This document shows, one piece after another, positions 75-29,784 of a stretch of 48,323 nt of DNA. This stretch comes from a virus, in IMG/VR virus record IMGVR_UViG_3300030388_001859, positions 1 through 48,323 of that record; one strand, written 5' to 3'. A program made the translations under genes and the position numbers. How positions within the stretch are numbered: the stretch's first letter is position 1; each line of letters opens with the position of its first letter. The notes beneath the pieces are model-generated. The model did no database searches. It was given only the letters and a program-made list of their open reading frames with translations, and was not told the DNA's origin.

Positions 75-674
75 TTATTCTTTGCTTTTTTGACCAAGAT
101 ATCCACTATGATGCCTTTGTGAATATGCTTTTTTGGTAAATTTAATTTTCTTTATTAATTCTACAATTAAAATATCTCCTATTACTTTCATTAATGTTGT
201 GGATGTAGTTGGTGTTAAACCTAATGGGCATACTTCTTTTGTATTTCCAGTATGAATAGTTATATCAGATTTATTTGCCAAAATACTATCTTTATCACCT
301 GTGATGCAAATAATAGCTATATGAGGATACATGTTTTTTGATAATTCAATTAATTCTAATATTTCTCTAGTTTTACCAGAATTAGATAAAAGAATAAGAA
401 TATCATTTTGTTGAAGTATACCTAAATCTCCATGTTGAGCTTCACTAGGATGTAAATAGACAGAAGGTGTTCCTGTTGAATTAAGAGTAGATGAAATGTT
501 TAATGCTATTTGACCAGCCTTTCCCATTCCTGATAATATAACTTTACCCTTAGATCCTACACCATGAACCTTTTGTTTTATTCTATTAACTGCTAATTCA
601 AAAGAAAAGTTTACAGGAATATTTTTTATTTGTGTTGCTTCATATTCTAGTAATTCCTTAATTGATTCTTCCAT
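75..674 (-). CDS. SIS-domain sugar-phosphate isomerase (KdsD/GutQ-like, no CBS domains)
   Basis: A single SIS domain fills this 199-residue protein. The G-rich start of the fold is at about residues 43-60, the HGDLG segment typical of arabinose-5-phosphate isomerases at about 81-85, and the phosphosugar-binding SNSGKTRE at 97-105. Bacterial KdsD/KpsF is about 320 residues with a C-terminal CBS pair; this one stops after SIS, as in the short unregulated forms. The family interconverts ribulose-5-phosphate and arabinose-5-phosphate (Kdo precursor); related SIS proteins isomerise heptose or hexose phosphates. It overlaps the dehydratase gene by one base and is the last complete gene of the glycan cluster. 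The exact substrate is uncertain. Confidence 0.8.
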   Translation of the reverse strand: MEESIKELLEYEATQIKNIPVNFSFELAVNRIKQKVHGVGSKGKVILSGMGKAGQIALNISSTLNSTGTPSVYLHPSEAQHGDLGILQQNDILILLSNSGKTREILELIELSKNMYPHIAIICITGDKDSILANKSDITIHTGNTKEVCPLGLTPTTSTTLMKVIGDILIVELIKKIKFTKKAYSQRHHSGYLGQKSKE

Positions 675-1666
675 TATCTCAATGATACCTTACCTTGTAA
701 AACATCCATCCAATGATCACACATTTCATGCATCATAGATTCAAAAGTATATTCTGGTTTCCATTTTAAAGTTTCTCTAATCTTTGTTGAATCTCCTTTA
801 AGATAAGGTAATTCTTCAGGTCTCATATATTTAGGATTTTGTGAAATGTAATCCTTATAGTCTAAGTCTAAATATTTAAATACCAATTCACACATTTCTC
901 TAACTGAATGAGTTTCCATTGTTGATACTACAAAATCATCAGCCACATCATGATTTAACATTGCATGCATTGCTTTAACGTAATCTTTAGAATGACCCCA
1001 ATCTCTGTAAGAATCCATATTACCTAATTCTAATTTATCTTCTAAACCTAATTTAATTTCACATGCACGTTTAACAACTTTATTAGTTACAAAGTTACTT
1101 CCTCTTCTTGGTGATTCATGATTAAATAAAATTCCGTTTACTGCATGTAGTTTATGAGCTCTTCTATAATGTCTTACTATATTATACCCAAATACTTTTG
1201 AACAACCGTAAGGAGATACTGGATTCATAATACTACTTTCTCTCTGAAAGCCATCATCCTCAACAGTTAAACCAAACATTTCAGAAGAAGATGCTTGATA
1301 GAATTTAGCATTAGGACATGCTCTTCGGTATGCCTCTAATATATTTAATACACCTACAGCATTTGTTTGAACTGTATATTGTGGTACATCAAAACTTATT
1401 CTTACATGACTCTGTGCTGCTATGTTATAAATTTCATCTGGTTGAATTTGCTCAAGTAATCTTTCTAAACTTCCTTGATCTGATAAATCACTGTAATGAG
1501 TTGTAAGTTGACCACTTTCATATGCAGTTGTTAACCTAGCAGATTGATTTTCTGATGTAGAATTTCTTCTTACAGTTCCATGAACTTCATATCCTAGTTC
1601 TAAAAGATATTCGGCAAGATAAGATCCATCTTGTCCATTAATTCCTGTTATAAATGCTTTTTTCAT
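674..1666 (-). CDS. gmd: GDP-mannose 4,6-dehydratase
   Basis: Extended SDR enzyme of 330 residues that converts GDP-mannose to GDP-4-keto-6-deoxymannose in the cytosol. The NADP-binding GINGQDGSYLAE lies at residues 8-19, the catalytic Ser region SSSEMFG at 126-132 and the Tyr-x3-Lys pair at Y153/K157. NHESPRRG and the RDWGHSKDYV segment are also characteristic of this family. It is a little shorter than cellular enzymes (about 350-375) but appears complete. Its product feeds GDP-fucose or GDP-perosamine. The adjacent upstream aminotransferase gene suggests the perosamine branch; no GDP-fucose synthase is visible in the window although fucosyltransferase-like genes are. Confidence 0.95.
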   Translation of the reverse strand: MKKAFITGINGQDGSYLAEYLLELGYEVHGTVRRNSTSENQSARLTTAYESGQLTTHYSDLSDQGSLERLLEQIQPDEIYNIAAQSHVRISFDVPQYTVQTNAVGVLNILEAYRRACPNAKFYQASSSEMFGLTVEDDGFQRESSIMNPVSPYGCSKVFGYNIVRHYRRAHKLHAVNGILFNHESPRRGSNFVTNKVVKRACEIKLGLEDKLELGNMDSYRDWGHSKDYVKAMHAMLNHDVADDFVVSTMETHSVREMCELVFKYLDLDYKDYISQNPKYMRPEELPYLKGDSTKIRETLKWKPEYTFESMMHEMCDHWMDVLQGKVSLR

Positions 1667-1678
1667 TTTCTTAATTTG

Positions 1679-2311
1679 TTATTTAGTTTGTAAATAAGGA
1701 TCAACTCCTTCTTTTTTATTAAAGACTGCCATTTTTGTTAAATCTGGCCAATCTGCGATAGTCCATTGTCTTGGTTTTTGTTTTACTGCTTCATCAAAAT
1801 AATCTAAACCTAACTGAGCAGTTTCAGGTGTCATATAATAATGGTACCCATATGTTTCAATATCTTGATCTCGCCATGGAACATCTGGTAACCTTCCATC
1901 ATATGACATTTTCTTTAGTGCAATTGCATCTTCTTTATTATCACAAAGTATAGCTCCGCCTCTACCTAATGATAAATGCTTTTGAAATTGAAAACTCAAA
2001 CACATAAAAGATCCTGGTATATAACTATCCTTTTTCCATAAAACAGCTGCATCATAAATAGGTTTAAGATGTTCATTTACTTTATAATAATCTTGCCACT
2101 CTTCATCTCTCCACTTTAGATTAATGTTTAATTTATTTGCAAGAAAAGGTACTGATATGTAAGTTCTTTTAGGAACAGTAATTGTAGTTATATTTTGATG
2201 TCTTAAACATAATTCTATACCATGAGTACATGCATCTAAACATACTACATAAGGTGCTCCAAAAAATTCAGCAAGTTGTTTTTCTAATTGTGTTACAGTC
2301 TCAAAGCTCAT
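1679..2311 (-). CDS. Miniature DegT/DnrJ/EryC1 sugar aminotransferase
   Basis: PLP-dependent sugar aminotransferase family, but only 210 residues against the usual 360-400. Still present are the substrate-binding start (FGAPYVVCLDACTHGIEL), the Asp that contacts the PLP ring (YDAA, about D87), the Schiff-base Lys (SFQFQKHLSLGRGGA, K111) and the GYHYYMTPETAQLGL segment. Missing are part of the middle and nearly all of the C-terminal small domain. With GDP-mannose dehydratase next to it, a GDP-perosamine synthase-like role is the natural inference. The intact key residues argue against a decayed gene, though activity without the small domain is uncertain. A promoter-like motif precedes it by 16 bases. 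Confidence 0.75.
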   Translation of the reverse strand: MSFETVTQLEKQLAEFFGAPYVVCLDACTHGIELCLRHQNITTITVPKRTYISVPFLANKLNINLKWRDEEWQDYYKVNEHLKPIYDAAVLWKKDSYIPGSFMCLSFQFQKHLSLGRGGAILCDNKEDAIALKKMSYDGRLPDVPWRDQDIETYGYHYYMTPETAQLGLDYFDEAVKQKPRQWTIADWPDLTKMAVFNKKEGVDPYLQTK

Positions 2312-2320
2312 GTTATAATT

Positions 2321-2334
2321 TGTTTTATTATATA
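2321..2334 (-). promoter_or_regulatory. Promoter-like motif TATATAATAAAACA
   Basis: Variant of the recurrent motif. The TATATAA core ends 16 bases before the ATG of the aminotransferase gene, which suggests an internal promoter for the last three genes of the glycan cluster. Confidence 0.4.
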
Positions 2335-2361
2335 TTATATAAGATAAATGATGATTGTTTA

Positions 2362-3171
2362 TTATAAATTATACAGTGTGTTAATTTTAGTAGATAATAA
2401 AGTAGCAACATTTGAAATTGCAGATATATCGGCTCTTAATAAAAAGTTACACATACTTAAAGTATAAATTTCTTTAATACATTCTTTACTTAAATTATAT
2501 TTATGAAATTCTCTATTATTTCGCATCCTATCATTTTCATCAGTCTGAGGATCATCATCACTAGCCCTAAAAGCTTCATGATATATTATTGGTATACTTA
2601 TATGTTTACTTACTTCCTCTATTGCTCTATGATCATCAGTTGCTATAAATAATTGTTCTATGTTTGGATTTTTATTTAAAATTTCCTGTATCCTAATTAA
2701 GTATTTAGATAAAGGAGATACCTTATGATGGTGTAACATATCGGTTAATCTTATCTGTACACCTAAAGTTATTTTATCTCTAAGGTTATTATTATAATAA
2801 GAATCTAATTCGTTCTGAAGATAATCTTTTAATTTAAAGTTGTTATTAAATCTATATTGCAAATCACTGTAATCAACTAAAGGAACCTTATTATAATTTA
2901 AGAATGCCTTCTCCGATTTATTAGTTACAATGTTATCTGTGTTAGGCTTTGCCATTTGATCATAATAATATTCCCAACAATTATGAGTATTAAATTTATT
3001 AAAATTGTCTTCAGTACATACACAAGAATTAGTTTCCATATCCACATATAAGTTATCATCTTTATTAGAAGATAACAAAGAATTGAGAGTTATAAAGATA
3101 TTACCACCCATACCTACACCAGCAAATTTGTGAGCCGATGATACTTTGTGGAATTGTAAAATTTTATCCAT
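2362..3171 (-). CDS. GT23/O-fucosyltransferase-superfamily-like glycosyltransferase
   Basis: 269 residues with the donor-binding signature GVQIRLTDM at about 137-145, resembling the HxRRTDK-type motif of alpha-1,6-fucosyltransferases (GT23/NodZ). It is followed by the alternating beta/alpha pattern QLFIATDD...PIIYHEAF and a C-terminal LSMCNFLLRADISAISNVATLL that resembles the family's nucleotide-binding end. GDP-fucose is the usual donor in this superfamily, so another GDP-sugar made by the neighbouring genes is possible. It is distantly similar to the protein at 5507-6370, which has the same HIRLTDM and SNVAxA/TL landmarks. The start overlaps the end of the GT10-like gene by 8 bases, indicating translational coupling. 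Confidence 0.6.
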   Translation of the reverse strand: MDKILQFHKVSSAHKFAGVGMGGNIFITLNSLLSSNKDDNLYVDMETNSCVCTEDNFNKFNTHNCWEYYYDQMAKPNTDNIVTNKSEKAFLNYNKVPLVDYSDLQYRFNNNFKLKDYLQNELDSYYNNNLRDKITLGVQIRLTDMLHHHKVSPLSKYLIRIQEILNKNPNIEQLFIATDDHRAIEEVSKHISIPIIYHEAFRASDDDPQTDENDRMRNNREFHKYNLSKECIKEIYTLSMCNFLLRADISAISNVATLLSTKINTLYNL

Positions 3172-4054
3172 TTATAGCAGGTTCTATGAATTGTTTAAAA
3201 ATATAATCTTCAGCGCACAAAAGATCTTGTGCTCTATTATAATTATCTAAAATAGCAGCTTTCTTACTATTATATAAATCTACAGTTAAATCCTTAATAT
3301 CAAAATCATCATCCATTATTATAATCCCATCAGTATTAAAAAAATCTCCAATGTTATCTATACCATAATAAACAGGAATAGTACCAGTCATAAAGCAATC
3401 AGTTAGCTTTTCAGTAAACATATTTGAATATGTTGCATTTTCCATTGCAATAGAAAAACAATAATCTTTTAAACCATCAGCTTTATCTTTTATAAAATTA
3501 AAACCGCTACCAAAATGATCAACTCCTAGTTTAGAATATTTTTCAATCATTTTTTGTCTATACTCATGTTCTTCACACATTACCTTATCAGATGCAATCA
3601 TAGACACTAATTTACTTTTAGGATATATTTTACCTTCTGTTAAAAATGATTTACCAGAACATAATGTTAATTGAAAAATATCATCCATTTGGGCCAGCTC
3701 AGCATCATGTGTAAATACTTTAATAAATTTTTCTTTTAATTCTGGTATATTGTTTTTACACCACTCATAAAGAGAATGCTTTTCATCTTCGTATGATGGA
3801 GTACCATCTTCGAGAGTTATGTATTTTCGTTTATAATAATGCGACACTGTTTTAGATTCACAAAGCCATGCATATTCTTTAGTTTTTCTATAAATACTAG
3901 CAGTACGACCGATCATATATTTATCAATATGTATAGTTATATTAGCGCTTGCATAACCCTTTACCCATTCAACATATTTAGTAGGTAAACCTGTTGATGA
4001 TATTGTATGCGTAAAGCCACCACCACCCATATTAATCTTTGTCTTTTTAATCAT
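3164..4054 (-). CDS. GT10-like alpha-1,3-fucosyltransferase
   Basis: 296 residues. The diagnostic region is at about 198-231 (YCFSIAMENATYSNMFTEKL then TDCFMTGTIPVYYG), matching the GT10 donor-site pattern F-S-(I/L)-x-x-E-N-(S/A) ... TEK(L/I) ... G-(T/V)-(I/V)-P-(I/V)-Y-(W/Y)-G. GT10 enzymes transfer fucose from GDP-fucose to GlcNAc-type acceptors. The N-terminal acceptor domain is divergent, as is usual. There is no signal peptide or membrane segment, so it is a cytosolic enzyme. It overlaps both neighbours by 8 bases. The exact sugar and acceptor are not deducible. Confidence 0.75.
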   Translation of the reverse strand: MIKKTKINMGGGGFTHTISSTGLPTKYVEWVKGYASANITIHIDKYMIGRTASIYRKTKEYAWLCESKTVSHYYKRKYITLEDGTPSYEDEKHSLYEWCKNNIPELKEKFIKVFTHDAELAQMDDIFQLTLCSGKSFLTEGKIYPKSKLVSMIASDKVMCEEHEYRQKMIEKYSKLGVDHFGSGFNFIKDKADGLKDYCFSIAMENATYSNMFTEKLTDCFMTGTIPVYYGIDNIGDFFNTDGIIIMDDDFDIKDLTVDLYNSKKAAILDNYNRAQDLLCAEDYIFKQFIEPAING

Positions 4055-4565
4055 TACCTATTTCTAATCTTTTTGCATTTTCTTTAATTTTACTTCCGTC
4101 AATTACTTTTATTAACTTAGCAGGATTTCCTTTATATACACCCCAAGGAATAGTATCACCTATTAATAAACTACCAGCAGACAGTAAAACGCCTTCTCTT
4201 AAAATAGATCCTGGTAAAACCATTGCATTACTTCCAACATTAGAAAATCTTTCCATTATTACTGGTTCAATGATTTGTCTTCCTTTAAATTCTTTAGGTA
4301 TCATAGCTCCGAATAAACCACTACCATCAAACCTATCAGAACCGCAAACAATTCTTGCACCAGCCATTATGTTATTAAAACCATCACATTTAAATACACC
4401 AGTCTTTCCTCCAATTATTGTAACGTATGGTGCAATATGTACATAATCACCTATCGTTGCATTTACTGTACAATAAACACCTTTATCAATAGCAACATGA
4501 TTACCTATCTTTGGTTTTATTCTAAACTCTGCATCCTTATGTATAAAAATATCTTTATTATTCAT
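4047..4565 (-). CDS. Hexapeptide-repeat (left-handed beta helix) acyltransferase, copy 1
   Basis: 172 residues built of imperfect hexapeptide turns (IGNHVAIDKGVYCTVNATIGDYVHIAPYV), the left-handed beta-helix of WbbJ/maltose O-acetyltransferase-type enzymes. The C-terminal WGVYKGNPAKLIK is the classic closing motif of the family. Such enzymes move an acetyl group from acetyl-CoA to a sugar hydroxyl or amino group. The strictly expected catalytic His of the family is best represented by the H in DYVHIAPYV. It is a paralogue of the next gene, of identical length and with the same landmarks, overlapping it by 8 bases. It probably acylates a sugar nucleotide or glycan made by this cluster. Confidence 0.8.
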   Translation of the reverse strand: MNNKDIFIHKDAEFRIKPKIGNHVAIDKGVYCTVNATIGDYVHIAPYVTIIGGKTGVFKCDGFNNIMAGARIVCGSDRFDGSGLFGAMIPKEFKGRQIIEPVIMERFSNVGSNAMVLPGSILREGVLLSAGSLLIGDTIPWGVYKGNPAKLIKVIDGSKIKENAKRLEIGND

Positions 4566-5076
4566 ATCCTAATTCTTTAGCGTGTTTTAAAATTATTTCT
4601 TTATCTCGTTTCTTAATTGGTTTTGCAGGACTACCAACATAAATAGTCCAAGGTTCCAAGTCTTTGGTTGCTAATGAATTCGCGCCTAAGACAGCACCTT
4701 CACCAAAGGTTACACCAGGCATAATACAGCAATTAACTCCACAACCAGAATATTTTTCAAATGTAATATCAGCAAAAACAACCTTTCGATATTTAGCAGG
4801 AATAGTTGGTCCTACTAAACCTTCACCAGTATAATCTTCACTACCTGCTACGATCTTTGTACCTGCTGCACAAAATGAAAAATCTTTAAATGTAACAGTT
4901 GTATTCTTCCCTCCTACACTTACTACATAAGGTGCAATATGAACATAATCACCTATATCTATTTTAGTAGAAAACTGAACTCCTTTATCTATAGCAACAT
5001 GATTACCTATTTTGCTACCTTCTTTTTGTTTTATCCATACATCTTCATGAATGTAAACATCTTCTCCTATTTTCAT
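4558..5076 (-). CDS. Hexapeptide-repeat acyltransferase, copy 2
   Basis: 172 residues, same fold as its downstream neighbour. IGNHVAIDKGVQFSTKIDIG is followed by DYVHIAPYV and then by the closing motif WTIYVGSPAKPIKKR. The two proteins share the IGNHVAIDKGV segment exactly, so they arose by tandem duplication and then diverged over the rest of the helix, which probably gives different acceptor specificity. An acetyltransferase acting on a sugar in this pathway is the likely role; with an aminotransferase in the cluster, N-acylation of an amino sugar is possible. It overlaps the cupin gene by 4 bases. Confidence 0.8.
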   Translation of the reverse strand: MKIGEDVYIHEDVWIKQKEGSKIGNHVAIDKGVQFSTKIDIGDYVHIAPYVVSVGGKNTTVTFKDFSFCAAGTKIVAGSEDYTGEGLVGPTIPAKYRKVVFADITFEKYSGCGVNCCIMPGVTFGEGAVLGANSLATKDLEPWTIYVGSPAKPIKKRDKEIILKHAKELGYE

Positions 5077-5483
5077 AAAAATGTTTTGTCTAATTTTTGC
5101 CCTTCATAAGGTCCTGTTTTATATTCATAGACCAAAGTGTCATCTTCCATTATTTCATAGTTATGACCACCTTCTAATGTAAATGATGCATCGCCTGGGT
5201 TTAATATTGGTGTTGCAATAATCTGATCATCTATATCATAAAAGATACACTTAACACTACCTCTTATAACTATCCATGATTCTTGTGCAATTACATCTCT
5301 AGTTCGGTTTTTCCAAATATGCTTATGTGGTTTAAATGTTTTACCCTTTTCCATTTTTAATGTAGAGCATTGAATAAATTGTTCTTCAGGTATTAAATCA
5401 ACTCTAGGTTCTGTTATTTCATCTACTCTTTGTATTAAATGTAATAGCTTAGTAGGATCAACTTTTGAATATATTTTTTCCAT
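5073..5483 (-). CDS. Cupin-fold protein, WbuC-like
   Basis: 136 residues with a single cupin barrel. Motif 1 is FKPHKHIWKNRTRDVIAQES plus WIVIRGSV (about 50-80) and motif 2 is PGDASFTLEGGHNYEIMEDD (about 94-113). The ending VYEYKTGPYEGQKLDKTFL closely fits WbuC-type cupins found in O-antigen clusters and in sugar-nucleotide operons. Family function is not well established; cupins of this sort are candidates for sugar epimerisation or isomerisation, and the paired histidines suggest metal binding. Position between acyltransferase and glycosyltransferase genes fits sugar tailoring. A strong upstream promoter-like motif lies 9 bases from the ATG, so a second transcript may start here. Confidence 0.7.
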   Translation of the reverse strand: MEKIYSKVDPTKLLHLIQRVDEITEPRVDLIPEEQFIQCSTLKMEKGKTFKPHKHIWKNRTRDVIAQESWIVIRGSVKCIFYDIDDQIIATPILNPGDASFTLEGGHNYEIMEDDTLVYEYKTGPYEGQKLDKTFL

Positions 5484-5485
5484 AA

Positions 5486-5499
5486 TTTATTATTATATG
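5486..5499 (-). promoter_or_regulatory. Promoter-like motif CATATAATAATAAA
   Basis: Copy of the recurrent motif. The core ends 9 bases before the cupin ATG. It suggests that the downstream half of the glycan cluster has its own promoter. Confidence 0.45.
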
Positions 5500-5506
5500 T
5501 TTGTTT

Positions 5507-6370
5507 TTATTGTTTGTTTAATGTGGATATGTTATAACTTTTTATAATTGTATCAGAAAAAACTAAAGATGCATTAGCTACATTGCTAGTTCTATGTAAA
5601 AGGTATTTACATTTACTTAACATCATCATATCTAAAAATCCATGTTCCCAAAATTCTTTACTTTCATGATTTATTAATTGTAGCTTATATGAATTTTCAG
5701 ATTCTTTTTCACATCTATTTAAATAATCAATAAATTTAATTCTATTACTATATTTATCTACTAGTTTTTTTATTGATTCATTATTGTCAGATGCTACAAA
5801 TATTGTCTTAATCTCTTTATGTTCTTTTAATATTAAATCAATCCTTTTTTCAAACTCCTTAAAATTAAGAATACCATACTCTGGGTGAATTTTATCCATG
5901 TCTGTTAATCTAATATGAACACCTAATGCATTATTGAAATCTATTTTATCTTCTTCATTTTTAATAAGCATTTTCATTCTCTTATTAAATTTTAATTTTT
6001 TAGCCAATTTTCTTAAAAATAAAATATCAGGTTGATCTGCTTTTACTTCTACATTAAGTTTGGAATTTTCATTGGAGCCTGGTCCTGTAAAACCTTCTAT
6101 GCGTTTATAATCTTCAGTTCTCTTAGGTTGATCAAAAATAAAATCAATCATATTTAAATCTTCAGGATTATAAGAGGATTCCATTTTATCAATCTTTACA
6201 TATTCTTTTAATCCATTATCAAAAGTCCATGCTAAGTTTTGTTGAAAAAATATATTTTTAATATTTTCTCCATCGGTTTTAATTGCATCTTCTAACCATT
6301 TCATATTGTAAATCATTCCCATGACTAAAGAAAATATACCACCGGCTGCTACATAGATATGTTTTTTCAT
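5507..6370 (-). CDS. GT23-like glycosyltransferase, second copy
   Basis: 287 residues with GVHIRLTDMD at about 150-159, the GDP-sugar-binding H-x-R motif of GT23/O-fucosyltransferase-superfamily enzymes. It continues with KTIFVASDNNESIKKL and a C-terminal MMMLSKCKYLLHRTSNVANA segment equivalent to that in the protein at 2362-3171. The opening residues MKKHIYVAAGGIFSLVMGM are hydrophobic, but the protein is predicted cytosolic because the stretch forms the first strand and helix of the fold. Acceptor and donor are unknown; GDP-deoxyhexose is the best guess. It overlaps the GT25 gene by 4 bases, so the two are probably co-translated. Confidence 0.6.
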   Translation of the reverse strand: MKKHIYVAAGGIFSLVMGMIYNMKWLEDAIKTDGENIKNIFFQQNLAWTFDNGLKEYVKIDKMESSYNPEDLNMIDFIFDQPKRTEDYKRIEGFTGPGSNENSKLNVEVKADQPDILFLRKLAKKLKFNKRMKMLIKNEEDKIDFNNALGVHIRLTDMDKIHPEYGILNFKEFEKRIDLILKEHKEIKTIFVASDNNESIKKLVDKYSNRIKFIDYLNRCEKESENSYKLQLINHESKEFWEHGFLDMMMLSKCKYLLHRTSNVANASLVFSDTIIKSYNISTLNKQ

Positions 6371-7035
6371 TTTAAATGTTTTGTATTATTTTCAAATTTT
6401 GTTATCATCCAACTATAATCAATAACTTGGTTATGTATATCACTAAAGCTATTTTCTTGTATAGCAGTTATAGGATATGTGCAATATGCATTTCCATTTT
6501 CTTGGCCATTTTCTGCTAACCATACATCTATTATTTCAATTACCTTTTTATCATATCCTTCTATAAGCTTATCATAAAATCTTTCATGATATGCAATAGC
6601 GTGAGTTGCAAAACCTTCTTTTAATTTTAAAAGATTAGAATTTACTTTTACTAAAGGAGTATGAGTATTGGTACCTAAGTAAAACAAATCCCATTCATGT
6701 TCTTTTAATTGTTCGATTGAATGATTAAAGTATTTATGATTAACAAACTTAACATCGTCCTCAAGTACTAACACGGATTTCCATCCATTGGCTTTTGCCA
6801 TTTTTATTATACTTATATGAGAAGCAATACAACCATATTCACCTATTTTTATTTTTTTACCGTCACTTATATACCATTCGTACTCAGCCTGTGGTCTTTG
6901 TACTGCAGGAAATCTTTCGACTAAATCTAATATATTAAGTTCTTTAAAAATATCATTACATTTTTGTAACCTATCAGCACGCTTTTCTAAATTTATTAAA
7001 AATACTTTATCAAAATATTCAAATCCTTTTCTCAT
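6367..7035 (-). CDS. Glycosyltransferase family 25
   Basis: 222 residues with the complete GT25 (LPS glycosyltransferase) pattern: FDKVFLINLEKRADRLQ at the N-terminus, GEYGCIASHISIIKMAKANG in the middle and LVLEDDVKF, whose EDD is the DxD-like metal site, at about 93-101. Family members such as LgtB/LpsA transfer galactose or glucose from UDP-sugars to lipooligosaccharide; phage members are usually assigned to glycan decoration. It is a paralogue of the gene at 8694-9383, which shares the same landmarks (NLKHRADRW, AGCMASHINVWKLAKANNW, LIIEDDCDF). It sits 2 bases from the next upstream gene. Confidence 0.85.
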   Translation of the reverse strand: MRKGFEYFDKVFLINLEKRADRLQKCNDIFKELNILDLVERFPAVQRPQAEYEWYISDGKKIKIGEYGCIASHISIIKMAKANGWKSVLVLEDDVKFVNHKYFNHSIEQLKEHEWDLFYLGTNTHTPLVKVNSNLLKLKEGFATHAIAYHERFYDKLIEGYDKKVIEIIDVWLAENGQENGNAYCTYPITAIQENSFSDIHNQVIDYSWMITKFENNTKHLK

Positions 7036-7037
7036 GT

Positions 7038-7919
7038 TTATAATTTTTTAAATTCTGCTGCTATATGATTAATAAATTCTAGCTTATTACTAGATTGCAT
7101 GTTTCTAAACTCGCTCCAAATTTCTTCCATTTTAGGTTTTTCTGGATTAGACCCTCCCATATAAGCATGATACATATGATAAGCTTCTATAACTGGATCA
7201 TTACAGCCTTCAATACCTGTTACTAATTGTAGCTTATGAAAAAAGAATGCATCTTCTGGTGAGTAGCTATGAAAGAATTCAGCATCATAACCACCAACGG
7301 CTTTAAAACTATTAGCATTTATAAAAATAGAACCACCAGGTGCACCTGGATTAGAATGAGGAGGATTAATACCAGGTGTAAGTGAATCTATTAATACTAC
7401 ACCATTAATTATTTGATCACTCATTGTTTGATCCATTACTAATATTCTTCGATATGCAAATGTTTGCAATGCGCACCCATCATGAACTCTATTAAGATTT
7501 TTAAAAATATCAATAAAATAAGATGGTGTCATTAATAAATCTATATCATGAAAAAGATAATACTTAGATGAATTACTGTAGAGTGAACCAACATTCATTG
7601 CCAAACATTTATTAAAAGGTTCTGTTGTAGATTTCTTTATCCAAATATAATTAGTATTACTTTCTTCACATAATAATTTATGCTTAGGGGTATCACTATG
7701 CTCAACAAATGTAATAGAATAACTTTTTTCTGAATGTTTTATAATTGCATCCTTTAAATGTTTAACTAATGGTGCATGAAAAGATTCCCTGTTCATAACA
7801 GGTATAATGATAGAAACATCTACAGGATTAATATCCTTTAAATAAAATTCACAATTTTTCTTTACCTGTGAATAATCTATTCTTTTTTGTGTATAGAGAT
7901 TAATTAAATGGTTATCCAT
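7038..7919 (-). CDS. GT-A fold glycosyltransferase (GT2/GT7-like)
   Basis: 293 residues. DVSIIIPVMNRESFHAPLV (about 34-52) is the nucleotide-binding start of a GT-A domain. FNKCLAMNVG at about 102-111 and the DxD metal site FHDIDLLM (D125, D127) follow. The segment GGSIFINANSFKAVGGYDAE then PEDAFFF resembles the acceptor and catalytic end of beta-1,4-galactosyltransferase-like GT7/GT2 proteins. It is cytosolic, with no membrane segment. Its 3' neighbour is a GT25, and its start region overlaps the end of the GT11 gene by 16 bases. Donor sugar is not determinable; UDP-Gal or UDP-GlcNAc is typical. Confidence 0.75.
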   Translation of the reverse strand: MDNHLINLYTQKRIDYSQVKKNCEFYLKDINPVDVSIIIPVMNRESFHAPLVKHLKDAIIKHSEKSYSITFVEHSDTPKHKLLCEESNTNYIWIKKSTTEPFNKCLAMNVGSLYSNSSKYYLFHDIDLLMTPSYFIDIFKNLNRVHDGCALQTFAYRRILVMDQTMSDQIINGVVLIDSLTPGINPPHSNPGAPGGSIFINANSFKAVGGYDAEFFHSYSPEDAFFFHKLQLVTGIEGCNDPVIEAYHMYHAYMGGSNPEKPKMEEIWSEFRNMQSSNKLEFINHIAAEFKKL

Positions 7920-8686
7920 GAATCTGGTATAATGTTATTAGTTGGTTCATTTTTACTAAACCATTGATTAGGTCCAACTATTTTTCTATTTGGTTTATTA
8001 TTTAAATAAGCACCCCACCATGAAAATGAAGAGCTTGAAATTATATTATGTGTACATTTAGATTGTAGGTAAAGTTCTACATAATCCTTTTCATTTTCTA
8101 TAAAAATAAATTTATCTCCAATAAAGTTTTTCTTACACCATTCTATATCATCACTAAATATTAAATATTTATTTACATCACCAATAGCAGCTATGCCTTT
8201 ATTAAAATAATCCATTTCCCTAGCTACATGCAAATCATATTTTAAATAATCACCTCGCCTTACATGAATTGAACATGTTGTATTATTAAATAAGTTATCA
8301 TACCTTTTGAGTTTATCTTTTACAAAATCAGATGGCTGAAACAAATCTAAAATAAAATCTCTATTAGGAAAGTATTTTTCTGACTGAAAAAAACCATCAT
8401 ATAAAACATTATCCTTAACTACAAAACCTTCAAAGTGAAAAGGTACATCTATTTTATTATTAGGAGGATTATTTATTCTATTCCAATTAAATTTTTTAAA
8501 TATCTTTTGATACTCAAATGCATGCTGTAAATCAGGATTATGATGAATATTTCCATTTAAATGATTAAAGTTTTGCTCTACATTCCAATATCCAGTTTGA
8601 AAATTATTTGCCTTACCTTCATATTCAACAAAAGCAATCTGAAACATCATATTCCCAATGCCTCCTTTTAATCTACATGTTATCAT
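7904..8686 (-). CDS. GT11 alpha-1,2-fucosyltransferase-like protein
   Basis: 260 residues with the three GT11 landmarks: the start MITCRLKGGIGNMMFQIA, the GDP-fucose-binding HVRRGDYL at about 141-148, and the C-terminal SSSSFSWWGAYLN followed by KIVGPNQWF. These match bacterial alpha-1,2-fucosyltransferases such as WbsJ/FutC, which use GDP-fucose. It is the most confidently assigned fucosyltransferase of the cluster. The required GDP-fucose could come from the host, or from the cluster's Gmd plus a synthase outside the window. No regulatory site is evident; it sits 7 bases after a GT25 gene in the same reading direction. Confidence 0.88.
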   Translation of the reverse strand: MITCRLKGGIGNMMFQIAFVEYEGKANNFQTGYWNVEQNFNHLNGNIHHNPDLQHAFEYQKIFKKFNWNRINNPPNNKIDVPFHFEGFVVKDNVLYDGFFQSEKYFPNRDFILDLFQPSDFVKDKLKRYDNLFNNTTCSIHVRRGDYLKYDLHVAREMDYFNKGIAAIGDVNKYLIFSDDIEWCKKNFIGDKFIFIENEKDYVELYLQSKCTHNIISSSSFSWWGAYLNNKPNRKIVGPNQWFSKNEPTNNIIPDSWITI

Positions 8687-8693
8687 TATTCTT

Positions 8694-9383
8694 TTATTTT
8701 TTAATATTATCTTCTCTCATCATAATGGAATAATCTCTATTGCCATTTTGTACATTACTAAAACTTCTTCTTTGCCATGCCATTGGTGGATGAAATGCAT
8801 ATGAATTAATTAATGGCTGGACCCTTGAAGCTAAATATGTATCTACTGCCGTATAAAAGTTAGGTTCATTTTCTAAAATTGTATTAATAGCTAAATCATA
8901 ACAAGTATCTTTTATAGCATAACATGTTGTGGTTATTAATCTTTTACAACCTAATACATTTGCTGCTACTTTATCAGGAATATATTGACCACCTCTTGTT
9001 TCATGTATTCCTCCTAAATATAAAAGATCCCAATCATTAGGTACTTGTTTAACTTGTTGACTAAATATACTTTGTAAGTTATCAACAAAATCACAATCAT
9101 CTTCAATTATTAAAACATTTTTCCAATTATTAGCTTTTGCTAGTTTCCATACATTAATATGACTCGCCATACAACCAGCAGCACCTGGCCATGATTCTGG
9201 TTTAATATGATTCATTTTATCTTTACCAGGGGTATGGACCCAACCCATAGGATTGTTTGCTATCGCATCATATCTTTCTACTGCTATACCTGCCCTTTGG
9301 CATTGGTGAGATACTTCTTTCCACCTATCAGCTCTATGCTTTAAATTTATACATATAATTTTATCAAAATAACTATTAATCAT
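8694..9383 (-). CDS. Glycosyltransferase family 25, second copy
   Basis: 229 residues. FDKIICINLKHRADRWKEV opens the protein, AGCMASHINVWKLAKANNW marks the conserved helix, LIIEDDCDF provides the EDD metal-binding site and DWDLLYLGG follows. All are GT25 hallmarks and match the protein at 6367-7035 in order and spacing. Likely transfer of a hexose to a growing oligosaccharide from a UDP-sugar. The pair probably adds the same or similar sugar at different positions. One base separates it from the upstream 510-residue fusion protein gene. Confidence 0.85.
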   Translation of the reverse strand: MINSYFDKIICINLKHRADRWKEVSHQCQRAGIAVERYDAIANNPMGWVHTPGKDKMNHIKPESWPGAAGCMASHINVWKLAKANNWKNVLIIEDDCDFVDNLQSIFSQQVKQVPNDWDLLYLGGIHETRGGQYIPDKVAANVLGCKRLITTTCYAIKDTCYDLAINTILENEPNFYTAVDTYLASRVQPLINSYAFHPPMAWQRRSFSNVQNGNRDYSIMMREDNIKK

Positions 9384-9384
9384 A

Positions 9385-10917
9385 TTATTGGTTTAATGTA
9401 TTAACATCGTTTTTAAATCTCCTGCTTGCCTGGAAATGTTCTATTATAGGATCAGCTGTTGGATATATATGTTTCATACTATCAAATATAAAAGTATATT
9501 CTGGTGGAAGATTCTTTACTGCAAAGGTAGGATCTTCTCCTTTTATTGTATTAATCACAGTATCTAAATTCCACTGCTCCATCCTAGTTGATGCATTGCC
9601 TTCATTTATATTAATGTCTCTCCATAATCTACATAATCGTTGTGTCTTGTGATTATTCTCCATATAAATAGTACCACTTAAACATTCATTTTTTCTCCAT
9701 TTAAAATCTTGCCATCTTACTGCAATATCACAATTATAATTATTAAATAGAATAGGCATCTTGTGAAGTACTGCATCGCAGTCAACATATAATAATCTGT
9801 GGTTTGGATATTTAATAAGCATATCTAACATAAAGCTAGCTTTAAATCTAGTATTGGCTTGCCAATTACCTAAAGTATTTACACCTATTATATCTTTTTC
9901 TAATCCTAACCTATTTAAGGATTGAATTAAATTCTGAGCCTCTTGTTCATATGGAGTGTTAACTGTATAATAACCTACCACCATTAAATCTTTTGGTGCA
10001 TTAACTGGTATTTTACTATTAGGTATTACATTTATTGTTTTATTGTTAGCATGATCTTGGCTAATTATATCATAAAAAGATTCTGTTTTAATAAAAGGAG
10101 ATTCAGCTAAAGTACTTTGTGAAGATAAGTTTATAATTTCTTGAGATCCTTTATGAGATTCTAATGCAGAAAAAAGAATTCTTTTATAATTACCAACACT
10201 TTTTCTAAATTGTATTTTATCAAATTCTGTGTATGCTTGGTGGAAATGTGTATGTGCACCATCTGATAAATCAAATCCTAATAAGTATATTTTTTTATAA
10301 CCTAAGAGTAATGCTAATTGAATACCACAATGTCCACTATTGGATCCACTAGCAAAACCAACTACATCATTACTAAAACCTTCTATATTATTTGATTCTA
10401 TAATGCCATTACATTTATGGAGATCTTCATACTCAAGCCCTCTTGTATCTGTAATCATACCATCTTTTAATTCCATATAAGGATGAGTCATATTAGCTAC
10501 AAAATATACATGCTGTGTTTTTTGTCTAATCGATTCAATTGGTAATGTTCCTTTTGCAAAGTATGAATAATCTGTGGTTATAAAATATTTTGGGTTTTGG
10601 ATGTATTCAACAGTTTTATTAATTGCAATAGTATCAAAGCCTGATAATAAATTAAAATCAAATCCACTCAACGAAGGACCTCCACCTACAACAAAACATA
10701 TGTCATTAGTTATTGCTGGTAACTGATGAGCTTGTAAAAAAGAAATTGGAACTGGTAATGGAACTAATAAAGGATCCCTCCTAATTCTTTGTGAATGATT
10801 TGTAACTTTACTATGAGTCCCATCAGCTCTAACAGTTACTCTAGGAAATTGTTTCTTTTGATCACCATAAGATTGTGGTTCATGAACAATTCTTTTTATA
10901 CTTCTTCTACTTATCAT
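9385..10917 (-). CDS. DUF115/MptE-like domain fused to a GT-A-type glycosyltransferase
   Basis: A 510-residue two-domain protein. Residues about 70-280 are a DUF115/6-hydroxymethylpterin pyrophosphokinase-like domain (CFVVGGGPSLSGFDFNLL, TIAINKT, later IYLLGFDLS). This domain occurs in flagellin-modifying Maf proteins and in sugar-transfer clusters. Residues about 305-510 look like a nucleotide-sugar transferase: LMVVGYYTVNTPYEQEA, then RLLYVDCDAVLH with a DxD-like DCD at about 395, then SGTIYMENN. The basic N-terminus (RRSIKRIVHEPQ) closely matches that of the separate DUF115 protein encoded on the other strand at 47021. It probably initiates or transfers a nonulosonic or hexose residue; the combination is unusual and the substrate unknown. 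Confidence 0.65.
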   Translation of the reverse strand: MISRRSIKRIVHEPQSYGDQKKQFPRVTVRADGTHSKVTNHSQRIRRDPLLVPLPVPISFLQAHQLPAITNDICFVVGGGPSLSGFDFNLLSGFDTIAINKTVEYIQNPKYFITTDYSYFAKGTLPIESIRQKTQHVYFVANMTHPYMELKDGMITDTRGLEYEDLHKCNGIIESNNIEGFSNDVVGFASGSNSGHCGIQLALLLGYKKIYLLGFDLSDGAHTHFHQAYTEFDKIQFRKSVGNYKRILFSALESHKGSQEIINLSSQSTLAESPFIKTESFYDIISQDHANNKTINVIPNSKIPVNAPKDLMVVGYYTVNTPYEQEAQNLIQSLNRLGLEKDIIGVNTLGNWQANTRFKASFMLDMLIKYPNHRLLYVDCDAVLHKMPILFNNYNCDIAVRWQDFKWRKNECLSGTIYMENNHKTQRLCRLWRDININEGNASTRMEQWNLDTVINTIKGEDPTFAVKNLPPEYTFIFDSMKHIYPTADPIIEHFQASRRFKNDVNTLNQ

Positions 10918-10918
10918 T

Positions 10919-11512
10919 TTAAAATGTTATTTTATTATTATACAACGTAGAATATAAACTTGTCTTTTCAGGATTACGATATCGTTTAAAAAATAAATTC
11001 TCCTTAGGTCCATCATGATCAGTAACATGTAAATGCCCTAATGGATTTCTACTTTTTGTTGAGCTTTGGAAAAAGTCAAAACCTATTAAATCTAATTGTA
11101 AAAAATCACATTGAGTATTAAAGAAATTAAAAGTACTAATTCCAGTAGAAGGTTTAGTAGAACCTAAATTAGATTTAAGAGTATGGTATATTGATGGATC
11201 TATATTATAGGAATTAAAATAAGATAATTTATCACTCCATATAATTGGACTTAAAATGTAATCTACTTTATTATCTTTAACAATATTACCTACTCTATCT
11301 GCAGACTTAATACCCATAGAAAGTATATTTGTTTTACTTCCTATAGAATCTTTATAATCTTGTGTTTGTAAATAACCGCTATTAATTCTTACTACAATAT
11401 CATAAGCATCTATTAATTCTCCATGATTACTTTGGAGTAAACCAGATGAATTACCTACTATAATAATTTTCTTTCCTTTGCAATATTGTTTTATGCTTTC
11501 TAAGGATACCAT
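10919..11512 (-). CDS. GT29 (sialyltransferase)-like protein
   Basis: 197 residues. The opening KKIIIVGNSSGLLQSNHGEL continues into DAYDIVVRINSG, recalling the L sialylmotif of GT29 (hydrophobic strand, VGNSG, then D-x-(Y/H)-D-x-(V/I)-x-R-x-N). GSTKPSTGISTFNF fits the S motif, and HVTDHDGPKENLFFKR the H-x4-E VS motif. GT29 enzymes use CMP-sialic acid or related CMP-sugars. In phages and marine bacteria such proteins are usually only annotated as glycosyltransferases. No CMP-sialic acid synthetase is visible here, so the donor may be host-made or different. This is the first gene of the glycan cluster and follows a terminator and promoter-like motif. Confidence 0.65.
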   Translation of the reverse strand: MVSLESIKQYCKGKKIIIVGNSSGLLQSNHGELIDAYDIVVRINSGYLQTQDYKDSIGSKTNILSMGIKSADRVGNIVKDNKVDYILSPIIWSDKLSYFNSYNIDPSIYHTLKSNLGSTKPSTGISTFNFFNTQCDFLQLDLIGFDFFQSSTKSRNPLGHLHVTDHDGPKENLFFKRYRNPEKTSLYSTLYNNKITF

Positions 11513-19531: not shown

Positions 19532-20734
19532 TTATGAAAATCTTTTCTTATCTTTAGCTAAAGTCTTAGCAATTAGCTCTTTTGAATAATTATTTAATTC
19601 TTTCATTGACTGAGAATCAATAGGTTTTTTATAAAAGTCTTCATAAATACCTTTGTACATTTCTACTGTACTATCAAAAGGAACGCCTGGTTGAGCATTT
19701 GATTCAATAACATAAACTTTTCCATCTTTACTTTTCATTACATCAAAACATATAAAAGGAAACTTTTCATATATCTTGGAAAATCTTTCTAATACTTTAG
19801 CATAATCCTTAGGTAAATCTTTTATATCTCTTCTTTCATATTGAAATGACATTTCTTCATTAGCTCCACCTTTACCAGTTTTAGCCTTTTCATTATCTGG
19901 TGTTCTTGCCATCCAAAAGATAGGCTTACCATTAAAATTCATAAAACGATGTTCTTCGGCTTTATCAACAAACTCTGAATATGTATCAAAGATCTTTTCA
20001 TCAGCATCTTCCAATAATTCTGGTTTATCAAATATTTGAATACCCATTCCTGAATGACCTTCTGATGGTTTAGCAATAATAGGAAACTTTAAATTGCTTA
20101 ATGCTTCATTTTTACTAAATACTGTTTTAGGTATTGCATCATCACCTTCAACTAATTTATGAAATTCCTTTTTAGAACCAGATAATTTAATATCTTTAGG
20201 ATGATTATAAATATTTTCTTCTTTAATCCTACCTTCTTTTAATAATTGATTAACAATATCACTTTGGTAATTTAATATAGGATAATCAGGATTAATATCA
20301 AGCTTATCTATATTATTCTCTGTAATTTGAGTAAAGTATTTATCACCAGCAAAACCTTTATAACTCCACCATCTTTGTCCACTGCTTCTTTTAGTTGCAA
20401 GATAAACTTTTTTTAATGCCGAATCATTTGCTGCTGATTCCTTTAGTAAATCTTCTCTACCTAATTGTCTATATACTGCTTTTCTGGTTTTTTCCATCTT
20501 TTCAGCATACTTAGGATCACTCTTCTTATTAAAAACTACCTGTTGATTTAAAGATCCAGTTATTTTTCTTAAATCTTTATTTCTAGTTTTAATTAACCAT
20601 GCGGCCAAATCCTTAATAGAAAGATCTTTAAATCTACCTTCAGCATCTGGTGCATCAGAGTCATGCCACTCTGGTGCTCCTTTAGGTTTTTTCTCTAATA
20701 AGAATTGTTCAAAAAGTTTTAGATATTTCAACAC
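19532..20734 (-). CDS. ATP-grasp protein with extra N-terminal domain
   Basis: 400 residues. An unassigned N-terminal region (about 1-100, basic and helical) starts KYLKLFEQFLLEKK. An ATP-grasp ligase core follows from about 195 to 375: FPIIAKPSEGHSGMGIQIF (glycine-rich loop with the ATP-binding Lys) and the metal-binding end FICFDVMKSKDGKVYVIESN, with Asp, Glu and Asn. RimK/glutathione synthetase-type enzymes join carboxyl groups to amines using ATP. The start is GTG (or the next codon, TTG) since no ATG is in phase; both follow a recurrent motif. It could add a peptide or amino acid to a phage or host molecule; the substrate is unknown. Confidence 0.75.
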   Translation of the reverse strand: MLKYLKLFEQFLLEKKPKGAPEWHDSDAPDAEGRFKDLSIKDLAAWLIKTRNKDLRKITGSLNQQVVFNKKSDPKYAEKMEKTRKAVYRQLGREDLLKESAANDSALKKVYLATKRSSGQRWWSYKGFAGDKYFTQITENNIDKLDINPDYPILNYQSDIVNQLLKEGRIKEENIYNHPKDIKLSGSKKEFHKLVEGDDAIPKTVFSKNEALSNLKFPIIAKPSEGHSGMGIQIFDKPELLEDADEKIFDTYSEFVDKAEEHRFMNFNGKPIFWMARTPDNEKAKTGKGGANEEMSFQYERRDIKDLPKDYAKVLERFSKIYEKFPFICFDVMKSKDGKVYVIESNAQPGVPFDSTVEMYKGIYEDFYKKPIDSQSMKELNNYSKELIAKTLAKDKKRFS

Positions 20735-20741
20735 GAAGATT

Positions 20742-20755
20742 TATTTTATTATATA
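20742..20755 (-). promoter_or_regulatory. Promoter-like motif overlapping the stop codon of the thyA-like gene
   Basis: TATATAATAAAATA whose first part is the ATA TAA end of the upstream gene. The core ends 14 bases before the GTG start at 20734. Confidence 0.45.
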
Positions 20756-21639
20756 TCGTTGCCTCTACTGTTAAGTGCTAACCATTTAAATAATGAATCA
20801 TCTATTGCATCTGCATTAACATTATGGGAACCTAAATTAATATCTAATTCTAAAAGATTTAAATTATCAGTAGGATGGCCTTTTATGGTAATTAGATTTT
20901 TATTTAAAGGTGGATAAGACATATGAGAAAAAGGTGTAGTTAACATTTCTTTTACTAAATTAAAATGTCTTTCATAAATATGTAAAGAATGAACGATATG
21001 AGTATAAGAACCCATTTTTAAATCAGGATAAGTTAATCTTAAATGTTTTAACATTTGCTGTTGTAATAAACAAAAGAATGCTACATCAGTTGCTGTACCT
21101 AATACTAAATCATTAGATCTCATATCAACTGTAAAGTTTAATCTATTATCTCTGATTTGAAATATACCATTAAGAGTACATACAAAATCTTTATTACCTT
21201 TCCATTGGTGTGATGGTTTATTAAAATGAATAATTGATTGCCTTGAGTCTTTATCTTCAATCAAAGAATCTAATGCCCATTGGTATTGATTTCTACCATC
21301 AGAAAGAGGTTCGTTAAATATAAGATTACCATAAGCAGAATTTACAGTACCATCACCATTATCTAATTGTTTCCAGAATTTAGAATACTTACTTATAAAA
21401 TCAATATCCTTTCTTCCTGTAAAATACCATATAGTTTCACCAGCAATATATTTAAATTGGCTACTTCTTTTTTCATTTTCATAAAGTGGAAAATAAGGAT
21501 CATCAATAACTAAAGCTGCATTACAAATTTCTTTAATTTCCATACCTCTTGGTTTAGAAGTATAATCAGGATTCTCTAAAGTATCTATTAATGCTTTTTC
21601 ATAAACTTCTGCAAACGTATCTCCTCTATATGTTCTCAT
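20749..21639 (-). CDS. Thymidylate synthase family; probable dCMP-specific (hydroxymethylase-like)
   Basis: 296 residues of the ThyA fold. The nucleophilic Cys is in DFVCTLNGIFQ (usual PCHxxxQ, so the His is Thr here), the phosphate-binding Arg in SRQS and the RS in MRSNDLVLG are kept, and H-x-Y is present in SLHIYERH. The key difference is LGTATDVAFF where cellular enzymes have LGxPFNIAS: the Asn that reads dUMP is Asp. In T4 gp42 and engineered thymidylate synthases this Asn-to-Asp change selects dCMP. It therefore probably makes a 5-modified dCMP, for example hydroxymethyl-dCMP. It sits with two nucleotide kinase genes. Confidence 0.85.
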   Translation of the reverse strand: MRTYRGDTFAEVYEKALIDTLENPDYTSKPRGMEIKEICNAALVIDDPYFPLYENEKRSSQFKYIAGETIWYFTGRKDIDFISKYSKFWKQLDNGDGTVNSAYGNLIFNEPLSDGRNQYQWALDSLIEDKDSRQSIIHFNKPSHQWKGNKDFVCTLNGIFQIRDNRLNFTVDMRSNDLVLGTATDVAFFCLLQQQMLKHLRLTYPDLKMGSYTHIVHSLHIYERHFNLVKEMLTTPFSHMSYPPLNKNLITIKGHPTDNLNLLELDINLGSHNVNADAIDDSLFKWLALNSRGNDI

Positions 21640-21811
21640 TCTTTTTATTTTTACGAGCCTTGACTCTTTTATACGCTTCTTCTATACAATCGCCATATTC
21701 TGTATATTTCCATTGTGGTTCTAGTGCTCTCATTTTTTTAGATTCCTCAAAGACATCATTATTAAGTCCTTCATAGTGAGCATCATACATTATATCTTCA
21801 GCTTTTGACAT
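21626..21811 (-). CDS. Small charged protein, unknown
   Basis: 61 residues, hydrophilic, starting MSKAEDIMYDAHYEGLNND and ending in a lysine-rich segment (KRVKARKNKKNENI). It begins in the stop codon of the kinase gene and overlaps the next gene by 14 bases, a tightly coupled layout that supports it being real. No family is recognised. The Tyr/Trp-containing middle (PQWKYTEYGDCIEEAYKRV) suggests a small folded domain. Confidence 0.55.
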   Translation of the reverse strand: MSKAEDIMYDAHYEGLNNDVFEESKKMRALEPQWKYTEYGDCIEEAYKRVKARKNKKNENI

Positions 21812-22422
21812 TACTTAAACATGTTTAATTGTTTACTTTCTCCTGTTATTGTATTTTTATGTTTTAGAAATTCTGTTATAATATGAGAAACTTCTATTGC
21901 ACTCATTGTACCAACATTAATATGTAACTTATTTTTAATAGTACTTAATCGATGAGCTCTTGTAAATCCATCAACCTCAGCTTTAACTTCTTCTTCATTA
22001 CCATAAAAGGATTTACCATCATCTCTTTTTAATATAGTATGTGGATCATTAGTTAATGTAATTAAATAAAGATCTTCTCTTAATGCCCTTGTATATTTTT
22101 TTTCTATATCAAAAACAAAATCACCAGAGTAACCTCGATATAATGGTGAATAAACACTCTCACCTAAATGAGATCTATTAAAAATAAGATTAATATCTAA
22201 ATCATCTTTTAAATTTCCAACTTTTGATTTCATCATTAATTGAAACATCGTTTCATATAACTTATTTGAATAAGTTGCATGTTTTTCTTTGTCATCTTTA
22301 AAAGGTAATGATGAATAATGAAGCTTATGAAAAACATGATCACTCATATTTTTAATAATTAAATCTTGTTGTGTATCTTTGCCAACATTATCAGTACCTT
22401 CTATTATAATAAATTTACTCAT
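21811..22422 (-). CDS. Deoxynucleoside monophosphate kinase, thymidylate-kinase-like
   Basis: 203 residues. P-loop IIIEGTDNVGKDTQQDL at about 5-21 (thymidylate kinases have EGxDGxGKST); FNRSHLGESVYSPLYRGYSG at about 85-105 is the DRxxxS-like nucleotide-binding helix; LYLITLTNDP fits the core strand. LID Arg residues are less clear (LKRDDGKSFYGNEEE). It should phosphorylate dTMP or modified dCMP to the diphosphate before DNA synthesis. T4 gp1 does the same for dTMP, dGMP and hydroxymethyl-dCMP. It is the first gene after a perfect promoter-like motif, 10 bases upstream, and precedes the thyA-like gene in the same operon. Confidence 0.8.
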   Translation of the reverse strand: MSKFIIIEGTDNVGKDTQQDLIIKNMSDHVFHKLHYSSLPFKDDKEKHATYSNKLYETMFQLMMKSKVGNLKDDLDINLIFNRSHLGESVYSPLYRGYSGDFVFDIEKKYTRALREDLYLITLTNDPHTILKRDDGKSFYGNEEEVKAEVDGFTRAHRLSTIKNKLHINVGTMSAIEVSHIITEFLKHKNTITGESKQLNMFK

Positions 22423-22440: not shown

Positions 22441-22920
22441 TTAAAAGTTAGAATTGTTTATTACAATATCATAATCAGTAAAATTATCAAAATCCAATTC
22501 ATCAGCAGTAATTCTTCTTTCTATCTTATCATTAAGATCACCTCTTAATTGTAATCTTTTCTTTCGGATTGCTAAAGGTATATCTAAATAAATGATAGTA
22601 CAATCTTTTCTATCAATAGGATTAATTTCTGCAACTCCTTTAGGTGTCATTACAAATAGATTACATGTGGTTTTGAATTGCTCATAGCTTGTACCATAAA
22701 ACCATCCATTAAATTCAACATATTCATACCAATAATTATTATCAGCAAAAGCTTTAAAATCTTTTTCAGATATAAAATAATAATCTTGGCCATCAATTTC
22801 CCCTTCTCTAGGAGGTCTAGTTGTATATGATGTACCGTATGTAAAACCTCTACCTTCTAAAACCTTTCTCATATGATCTTTTCCAGCAGCGGCCTTTCCT
22901 ATTAATATAATTTTATTCAT
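22441..22920 (-). CDS. Guanylate-kinase-like nucleotide kinase
   Basis: 159 residues with P-loop IILIGKAAAGKDHMRKVL at about 3-20 and the guanylate-kinase signature TSYTTRPPREGEIDGQDYYF at about 30-49. EYVEFNGWFYGTS is the nucleotide-binding region and RKKRLQLRGD the lid. It is shorter than cellular Gmk (about 205) but all binding motifs are visible. It converts (d)GMP to (d)GDP, supplying DNA precursors. It overlaps the upstream small gene by 8 bases, and the promoter motif at 22426 lies between it and the next kinase gene. Confidence 0.88.
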   Translation of the reverse strand: MNKIILIGKAAAGKDHMRKVLEGRGFTYGTSYTTRPPREGEIDGQDYYFISEKDFKAFADNNYWYEYVEFNGWFYGTSYEQFKTTCNLFVMTPKGVAEINPIDRKDCTIIYLDIPLAIRKKRLQLRGDLNDKIERRITADELDFDNFTDYDIVINNSNF

Positions 22921-29316: not shown

Positions 29317-29784
29317 TTAAGTAAGTGAAATAATTATATTATTAACAGTATCGCCTTCTGCAATCTGCTCAATTAATTCCATTCCATCAATGACATGACC
29401 AAATGTTGTATGACCTGGGTCTAAATGTTGAGTTCCTCTTCGGCTTAAACAAATAAAGAATGCACCCATTGCAGTATGCGGTGATCCAGTATTAGCAGCA
29501 CTTAAAACACCATAAGCATGAAAGTTATTATTCTTTTTTCTTCTAGGCATTTCTAATTCATCATATAAGTATGGATAATCACCATTGGGGAGATCACCTT
29601 CTTTGTTCTTTGGGCCTAGCTGTACCATGAAGCCTGGTATAACTCTATCAAAACTTTGGCCATTATATTTACCATCCTCTGCTTTAGCAATAAAATTTCC
29701 AGTGTTTATTGGAGTTTCATCATAAAGACGGAATGTAATATCTCCTTTATCCATTTTAAAGGTAGCGGTGTATTTAGTATTCAT
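29317..29784 (-). CDS. Cyclophilin-type peptidyl-prolyl isomerase
   Basis: 155 residues with a complete cyclophilin fold. FDRVIPGFMVQLG at about 48-60 (catalytic Arg, Phe, Gln), AMGAFFICLSR (Phe) and HLDPGHTTFGHVIDGMELIE (His) align with CypA residues R55, F60, Q63, F113 and H126. The protein lacks a signal peptide and works in the cytosol, catalysing Xaa-Pro rotation to speed folding. A phage cyclophilin is uncommon; with Hsp20 and a GroES-like gene it forms a chaperone set. It follows the tape-measure gene with only 17 bases between, so it may assist virion protein folding. Confidence 0.93.
   Translation of the reverse strand: MNTKYTATFKMDKGDITFRLYDETPINTGNFIAKAEDGKYNGQSFDRVIPGFMVQLGPKNKEGDLPNGDYPYLYDELEMPRRKKNNNFHAYGVLSAANTGSPHTAMGAFFICLSRRGTQHLDPGHTTFGHVIDGMELIEQIAEGDTVNNIIISLT

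Follow-up and report, generated by a model that had tools for sequence, protein, structure and literature searches.

The thymidylate synthase-family gene and its surroundings

The window analysed here is an entire virus record of 48,323 bases, probably a genome fragment, and carries a thymidylate synthase-family ORF, two kinase-like genes and an island of nucleotide-sugar and glycosyltransferase genes (Table 1). The ORF starts with ATG, encodes 296 amino acids and has exactly the boundaries given in an earlier note made from the sequence. That note had placed the product in the thymidylate synthase (TS) family, an assignment confirmed by matches to PF00303 (E=4.8e-23) and PHROG_160 (5.6e-46) and by a TS fold. 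Many related loci are automatically annotated as thymidylate synthase; the NCBIfam TS models score the window protein far below their cut-offs. The phage lineage is uncultured and without a cultured member. Cultured phages matched the window at the nucleotide level only along a tRNA stretch, and a search for bacterial genomes that hold a relative, as a clue to the host, found none.

Table 1 Features of the locus (positions in the window)
Feature	Position	Strand	Evidence
Nucleotide-sugar and glycosyltransferase island, judged not to be part of cytosine modification	75..11512	-	Family matches; variable among relatives
Predicted dCMP 5-hydroxymethylase, 296 aa	20749..21639	-	PF00303; T4 dCMP hydroxymethylase and MilA as top PDB matches by sequence; MilA fold match
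Asp185 codon, cytosine-recognition residue (T4 Asp179, E. coli ThyA Asn177)	21085..21087	-	Alignment; invariant in relatives
Catalytic Cys154 and Thr155 codons	21175..21180	-	Alignment; invariant in relatives
Asp151 codon (T4 Asp145), hydroxymethylase water-activating residue	21187..21189	-	Alignment; role from PMC6400193
Ser101-Ala102-Tyr103 codons (T4 Ser94-x-Tyr96)	21331..21339	-	Alignment; role from PMC6400193
TMP-kinase-like protein, candidate hm-dCMP kinase (putative substrate)	21811..22422	-	PHROG_761 3.3e-12; neighbour conserved in relatives
Guanylate-kinase-like protein, candidate dNMP kinase	22441..22920	-	PF00625 1.6e-20; conserved neighbour

Directly downstream of the ORF lies a gene for an ATP-grasp-like protein (19532-20734, minus strand), the N-terminus of which (LKYLKLFEQFLLE) we take to resemble a T4-type capsid-targeting peptide. 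Runs of adjacent genes in two related genomes, labelled G002 and G004, encode N-termini that presumably share this resemblance.

Residue signature of the enzyme

The alignment of the window protein included 23 related loci, E. coli ThyA, the T-even gp42 enzymes and further phage enzymes, among them those of SPO1 type. Within the motif RSNDLVLGTATD, Asp185 aligned with the base-recognition Asn177 of ThyA, and the residue following the catalytic Cys154 was Thr155 rather than the His147 of ThyA, so that both substitutions described in the earlier note were recovered. Neither chance nor a sequencing slip accounts for these residues: 23/23 tabulated relatives (51-100% identity) have the Asp and the Thr, and comparison with five relatives gave dN/dS values of 0.16-0.32 (dS up to 1.5), the mark of purifying selection. 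In MetaGPA (PMC8670742), the two strongest associations with modified-cytosine contigs were independently found at positions 147 and 177.

Based on the T4 structure, the hydroxymethylase signature comprises an Asp at position -3 from the Cys and a Ser-x-Tyr (PMC6400193), present in the window protein as Asp151 and Ser101-Ala102-Tyr103 (T4 Asp145, Ser94 and Tyr96). The full dCMP-hydroxymethylase signature (Asp at Cys-3, Ser-x-Tyr, Cys-Thr and Asp) occurs in the window protein and in all 23 relatives. Work on MilA linked the use of deoxy substrates to a Ser and an Arg at another two positions (PMC5175136); MilA itself prefers the ribose substrate CMP via Ala176 and Lys133, whereas the window protein has Ser175 and Arg133, the pair preferring dCMP over CMP.

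The true TS in the alignment combine Cys-His with Asn177, Leu at -3 and Pro at the Ser94 position, and the dUMP hydroxymethylases combine Cys-Asn with Asn, Asp at -3 and Ala or Gly. The XP12-family pattern is Cys-Pro, Asp177, Asn at -3 and Ala, and that of the dCMP hydroxymethylases is Cys-Thr, Asp177, Asp at -3 and Ser; the window protein and its 23 relatives all belong to the last group. With Cys-Thr and Asp, the window protein has neither the Cys-His and Asn177 of canonical TS nor the Cys-Asn and Asn177 of SPO1 gp29-type dUMP hydroxymethylases, and with Cys-Thr and Asp151 it also departs from the Cys-Pro and Asn at Cys-3 of XP12-type dCMP methylases, a type represented by one reference sequence. 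The signature residues and the contrast with TS and dUMP hydroxymethylases support the earlier proposal that the predicted substrate is dCMP and not dUMP. Asp151, Ser101 and Tyr103, together with the contrast to the XP12-family enzyme, narrow the predicted reaction to hydroxymethylation as opposed to methylation, and the protein would form 5-hydroxymethyl-dCMP and THF from dCMP and methylene-THF.

Structural and phylogenetic affiliation

The best PDB sequence matches of the window protein were T4 dCMP hydroxymethylase (9e-25) and MilA (3e-24), with the best true TS at 6e-12. A structural search with an AlphaFold model (mean pLDDT 89.8, pTM 0.91) returned MilA chains as all of the top seven matches (TM up to 0.83) and aligned T4 dCMP hydroxymethylase at 30-31% identity. 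A maximum-likelihood tree joined the window clade to T2 gp42 and the enzymes of Microbacterium, Xp15 and Acinetobacter phages (81/98) and placed the TS apart in their own group (99/96), although long branches restrict deeper inference.

Compared with T4 gp42 (PDB 1b5e, 6a9a; about 31% identity), the window protein has the same fold, Cys-Thr, Asp at Cys-3, Ser-x-Tyr and cytosine Asp, but is 50 aa longer, mostly at the C-terminus, and has Gln in place of the second phosphate Arg (124). Phe174 and Arg177 of the T4 folate gate are also not conserved, which counts against a T4-like enzyme. The CMP hydroxymethylase MilA (PDB 5jnh), the closest fold match, likewise shares the Cys-Thr and cytosine Asp. 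A hydroxymethylase with the same signature and 51% identity is encoded by the huge phage LR756500.1.

Neighbouring kinases and pathway genes in relatives

Both of the nearby deoxynucleotide kinases claimed in the earlier note exist. The TMP-kinase-like assignment of the first comes with a Pfam match under the cut-off (2.9e-5), and a sequence search found no PDB relative of this protein; the second is guanylate-kinase-like. The order hydroxymethylase, TMP-kinase-like, GMP-kinase-like and topoisomerase is the same in G001, G002, G004, G005 and G009, and is present with insertions in LR756500. T4 gp1 is annotated with the substrates dTMP, dGMP and hm-dCMP, and the two kinase-like proteins could divide its work between them; searches with T4 gp1 and the T4 alpha-GT gave no matches in the relatives.

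In six larger relatives a canonical TS (E 5.8e-88 or better) is encoded in addition to the hydroxymethylase, as T4 has td in addition to gene 42. Unlike the T4 gene, the window gene has no beta-glucosyltransferase beside it, and LR756500 differs from the window in having, 1.4 kb downstream of the hydroxymethylase gene, a T4-type beta-glucosyltransferase (PF09198, 1.5e-24), where the window has the ATP-grasp-like gene immediately downstream. A gp56-like dCTPase (35% identity to T4 gp56 over 111 aa) is encoded beside the DNA polymerase in G005, the only lineage to show one; none was found in G001 or the fragmentary window record. In G010 and G011, a match to dCMP deaminase follows the hydroxymethylase gene, ~0.4 kb downstream. 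A serine hydroxymethyltransferase (1.8e-150), seen in G002 only, would regenerate methylene-THF from the THF released by a hydroxymethylase; a GT4-type glycosyltransferase adjoins this gene (L098:10670-12924).

Escherichia phage SF encodes a second, very diverged TS-like protein (L038:2983-3699) with Cys-Thr and Asp177 and with Asn at the ThyA Asp169 position, its gene lying two genes away from a thymidylate kinase gene.

The glycosyltransferase island

The island comprises GDP-mannose dehydratase-like, aminotransferase-like, hexapeptide-repeat, GT10, GT11, GT25, GT29 and FUT8-like genes, a set typical of surface glycans, and looks like a locus for variable surface-glycan synthesis. At the window edge it includes a KdsD-like arabinose-5-phosphate isomerase gene (75-674, minus strand), the single sugar gene with a wide distribution, shared by G002, G004, G005 and LR756500. 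A KdsB-like cytidylyltransferase gene follows the orthologue in G004, and KdsB-like homologues occur in G005 and LR756500. The KdsD-like and KdsB-like genes (recorded at 75-674 (-) of the window and L085:9710-10417) are a possible phage Kdo pathway.

Proposed pathway and alternatives

We consider it very probable that the ORF product is a dCMP 5-hydroxymethylase working like T4 gp42, in a pathway that would lead to phage DNA protected by 5-hydroxymethylcytosine (hmC). The family, the residues, their conservation, the predicted fold and the gene order are observed, and the activity, the kinase substrate, the incorporation and the protection are inferred. In the proposed mechanism, Cys154 would attack C6 of dCMP, with Asp185 recognising and protonating the cytosine N3, and methylene-THF would supply C5 with a one-carbon unit. 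Asp151, with Ser101 and Tyr103, would then activate a water molecule that adds to the exocyclic methylene, yielding 5-hydroxymethyl-dCMP and THF. The second phosphate would be added to hm-dCMP by the adjacent TMP-kinase-like, and perhaps the GMP-kinase-like, enzyme and the third by the host, and hm-dCTP would enter the DNA through the phage polymerase, so that hmC could protect the phage DNA from nucleases. Since all the available tests of sequence and structure class the enzyme with that of T4, hmC in the phage DNA is probable, and a phage carrying such a relative of the T4 enzyme probably incorporates hmC as a way to evade the nucleases of its host. This means of escape is a known trick, here in a lineage without a cultured member. 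Palindrome avoidance, a proxy for protected DNA, was uninformative (median observed/expected 0.87-1.05 in four sequences).

Two other activities were weighed for the enzyme. It is very unlikely to be a dCMP 5-methyltransferase of the XP12 type, in which the methylene would be reduced by hydride from THF to give 5-methyl-dCMP. Asp at 177 alone suffices for dCMP methylation in engineered synthases, as cited in PMC8670742, and is shared with the XP12-family dCMP methylase candidate of Xanthomonas phage DoCa5; in the DoCa5 enzyme, however, the Cys is followed by Pro, Cys-3 is Asn and the Ser94 position is Ala, and at all three the window protein has the hydroxymethylase residue. Moreover, the DoCa5 gene adjoins a DHFR, and none was identified in the vicinity of the window gene, while the position of EcTS Trp83 is Leu92 in the window protein. 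That the protein acts on dUMP after all, as a diverged TS or a dUMP hydroxymethylase, is in line with the name of the family and with what automatic annotation calls many relatives, but is most improbable given Asp at 177, Cys-Thr in place of Cys-His or Cys-Asn, the separate TS of the six relatives and the low NCBIfam scores. A dCMP 5-hydroxymethylase is the reading retained, and it provides residue-level grounds for that name where automatic annotation gives thymidylate synthase, extending the T4-type enzyme to a large uncultured phage lineage.

Alternatives also concern the fate of the product. The suggestion in the earlier note that glycosyltransferases of the island attach sugars to the modified cytosine was unsupported by the family matches, and decoration of hmC by these enzymes, for example as arabinosyl-hmC made via the KdsD-like isomerase, is highly doubtful. 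The shared isomerase gene would fit such a route, as RB69 uses a SIS-domain isomerase (PMC6024577). The RB69 system pairs an isomerase with an ORF53_52c-type protein and the arabinosyltransferase ORF003c, but no homologue of RB69 ORF53_52c was found, and the KdsB-like gene beside the KdsD-like gene in a relative suggests Kdo rather than arabinosyl-hmC. Neither AGT nor BGT (PF11440, PF09198) was detected in the window or the 12 IMG/VR relatives searched, which are fragments; LR756500 has a match. The island varies among relatives and the hydroxymethylase is core: G004, G005, G009 and LR756500 keep the enzyme and lack most of the island genes. Both the island glycosyltransferases as DNA-modifying enzymes and arabinosyl-hmC were put aside on these grounds. 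It is possible, although on balance unlikely, that hm-dCMP is made and cytosine replacement is only partial, because dCTP escapes destruction and cytosines are also modified by a C5-cytosine methylase of the phage. The single dCTPase lineage and a C5-cytosine DNA methylase (PF00145), carried by G001 and another six IMG/VR relatives, agree with this, but a missing dCTPase means little among contigs that are mostly fragments, the methylase might act on host DNA, and phage G also encodes both enzyme types.

The methylase nevertheless calls for caution over complete replacement of cytosine by hmC, since G001 belongs to the same viral population as the window (overlapping proteins are 99-100% identical) and its methylase would then have no substrate in phage DNA; the enzyme may be explained by incomplete replacement, by a target in host DNA or by an altered activity. 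Co-occurrence of the two enzymes raises a testable question, namely whether cytosine replacement in these phages is complete. An improbable extension is that the lineage makes hmC and that the methyltransferase-like enzyme acts on or edits hmC-DNA, any further decoration being by a transferase other than AGT or BGT; if true, this would be a cytosine modification scheme not yet described.

Other phage genes

The PF00145 methyltransferase gene of G001 (L095:945-2216, minus strand) lies near sliding clamp and polymerase genes, and the genomes with this gene, which include G004, G005, G006, G007, G008 and G009, also encode the dCMP hydroxymethylase. The window further encodes a HSP20 chaperone, a staphylococcal nuclease-like protein and a cyclophilin (11920-12318, 12435-12818 and 29317-29784, minus strand). 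A phage tmRNA (27684-28028, minus strand) with the tag DNAELAMAA is situated beside tRNA-Gly and tRNA-Ala; the tag is identical in G002 and G004 and a variant in G009, and the tmRNA of G005 has a different, long tag and is accompanied by 22 tRNAs.
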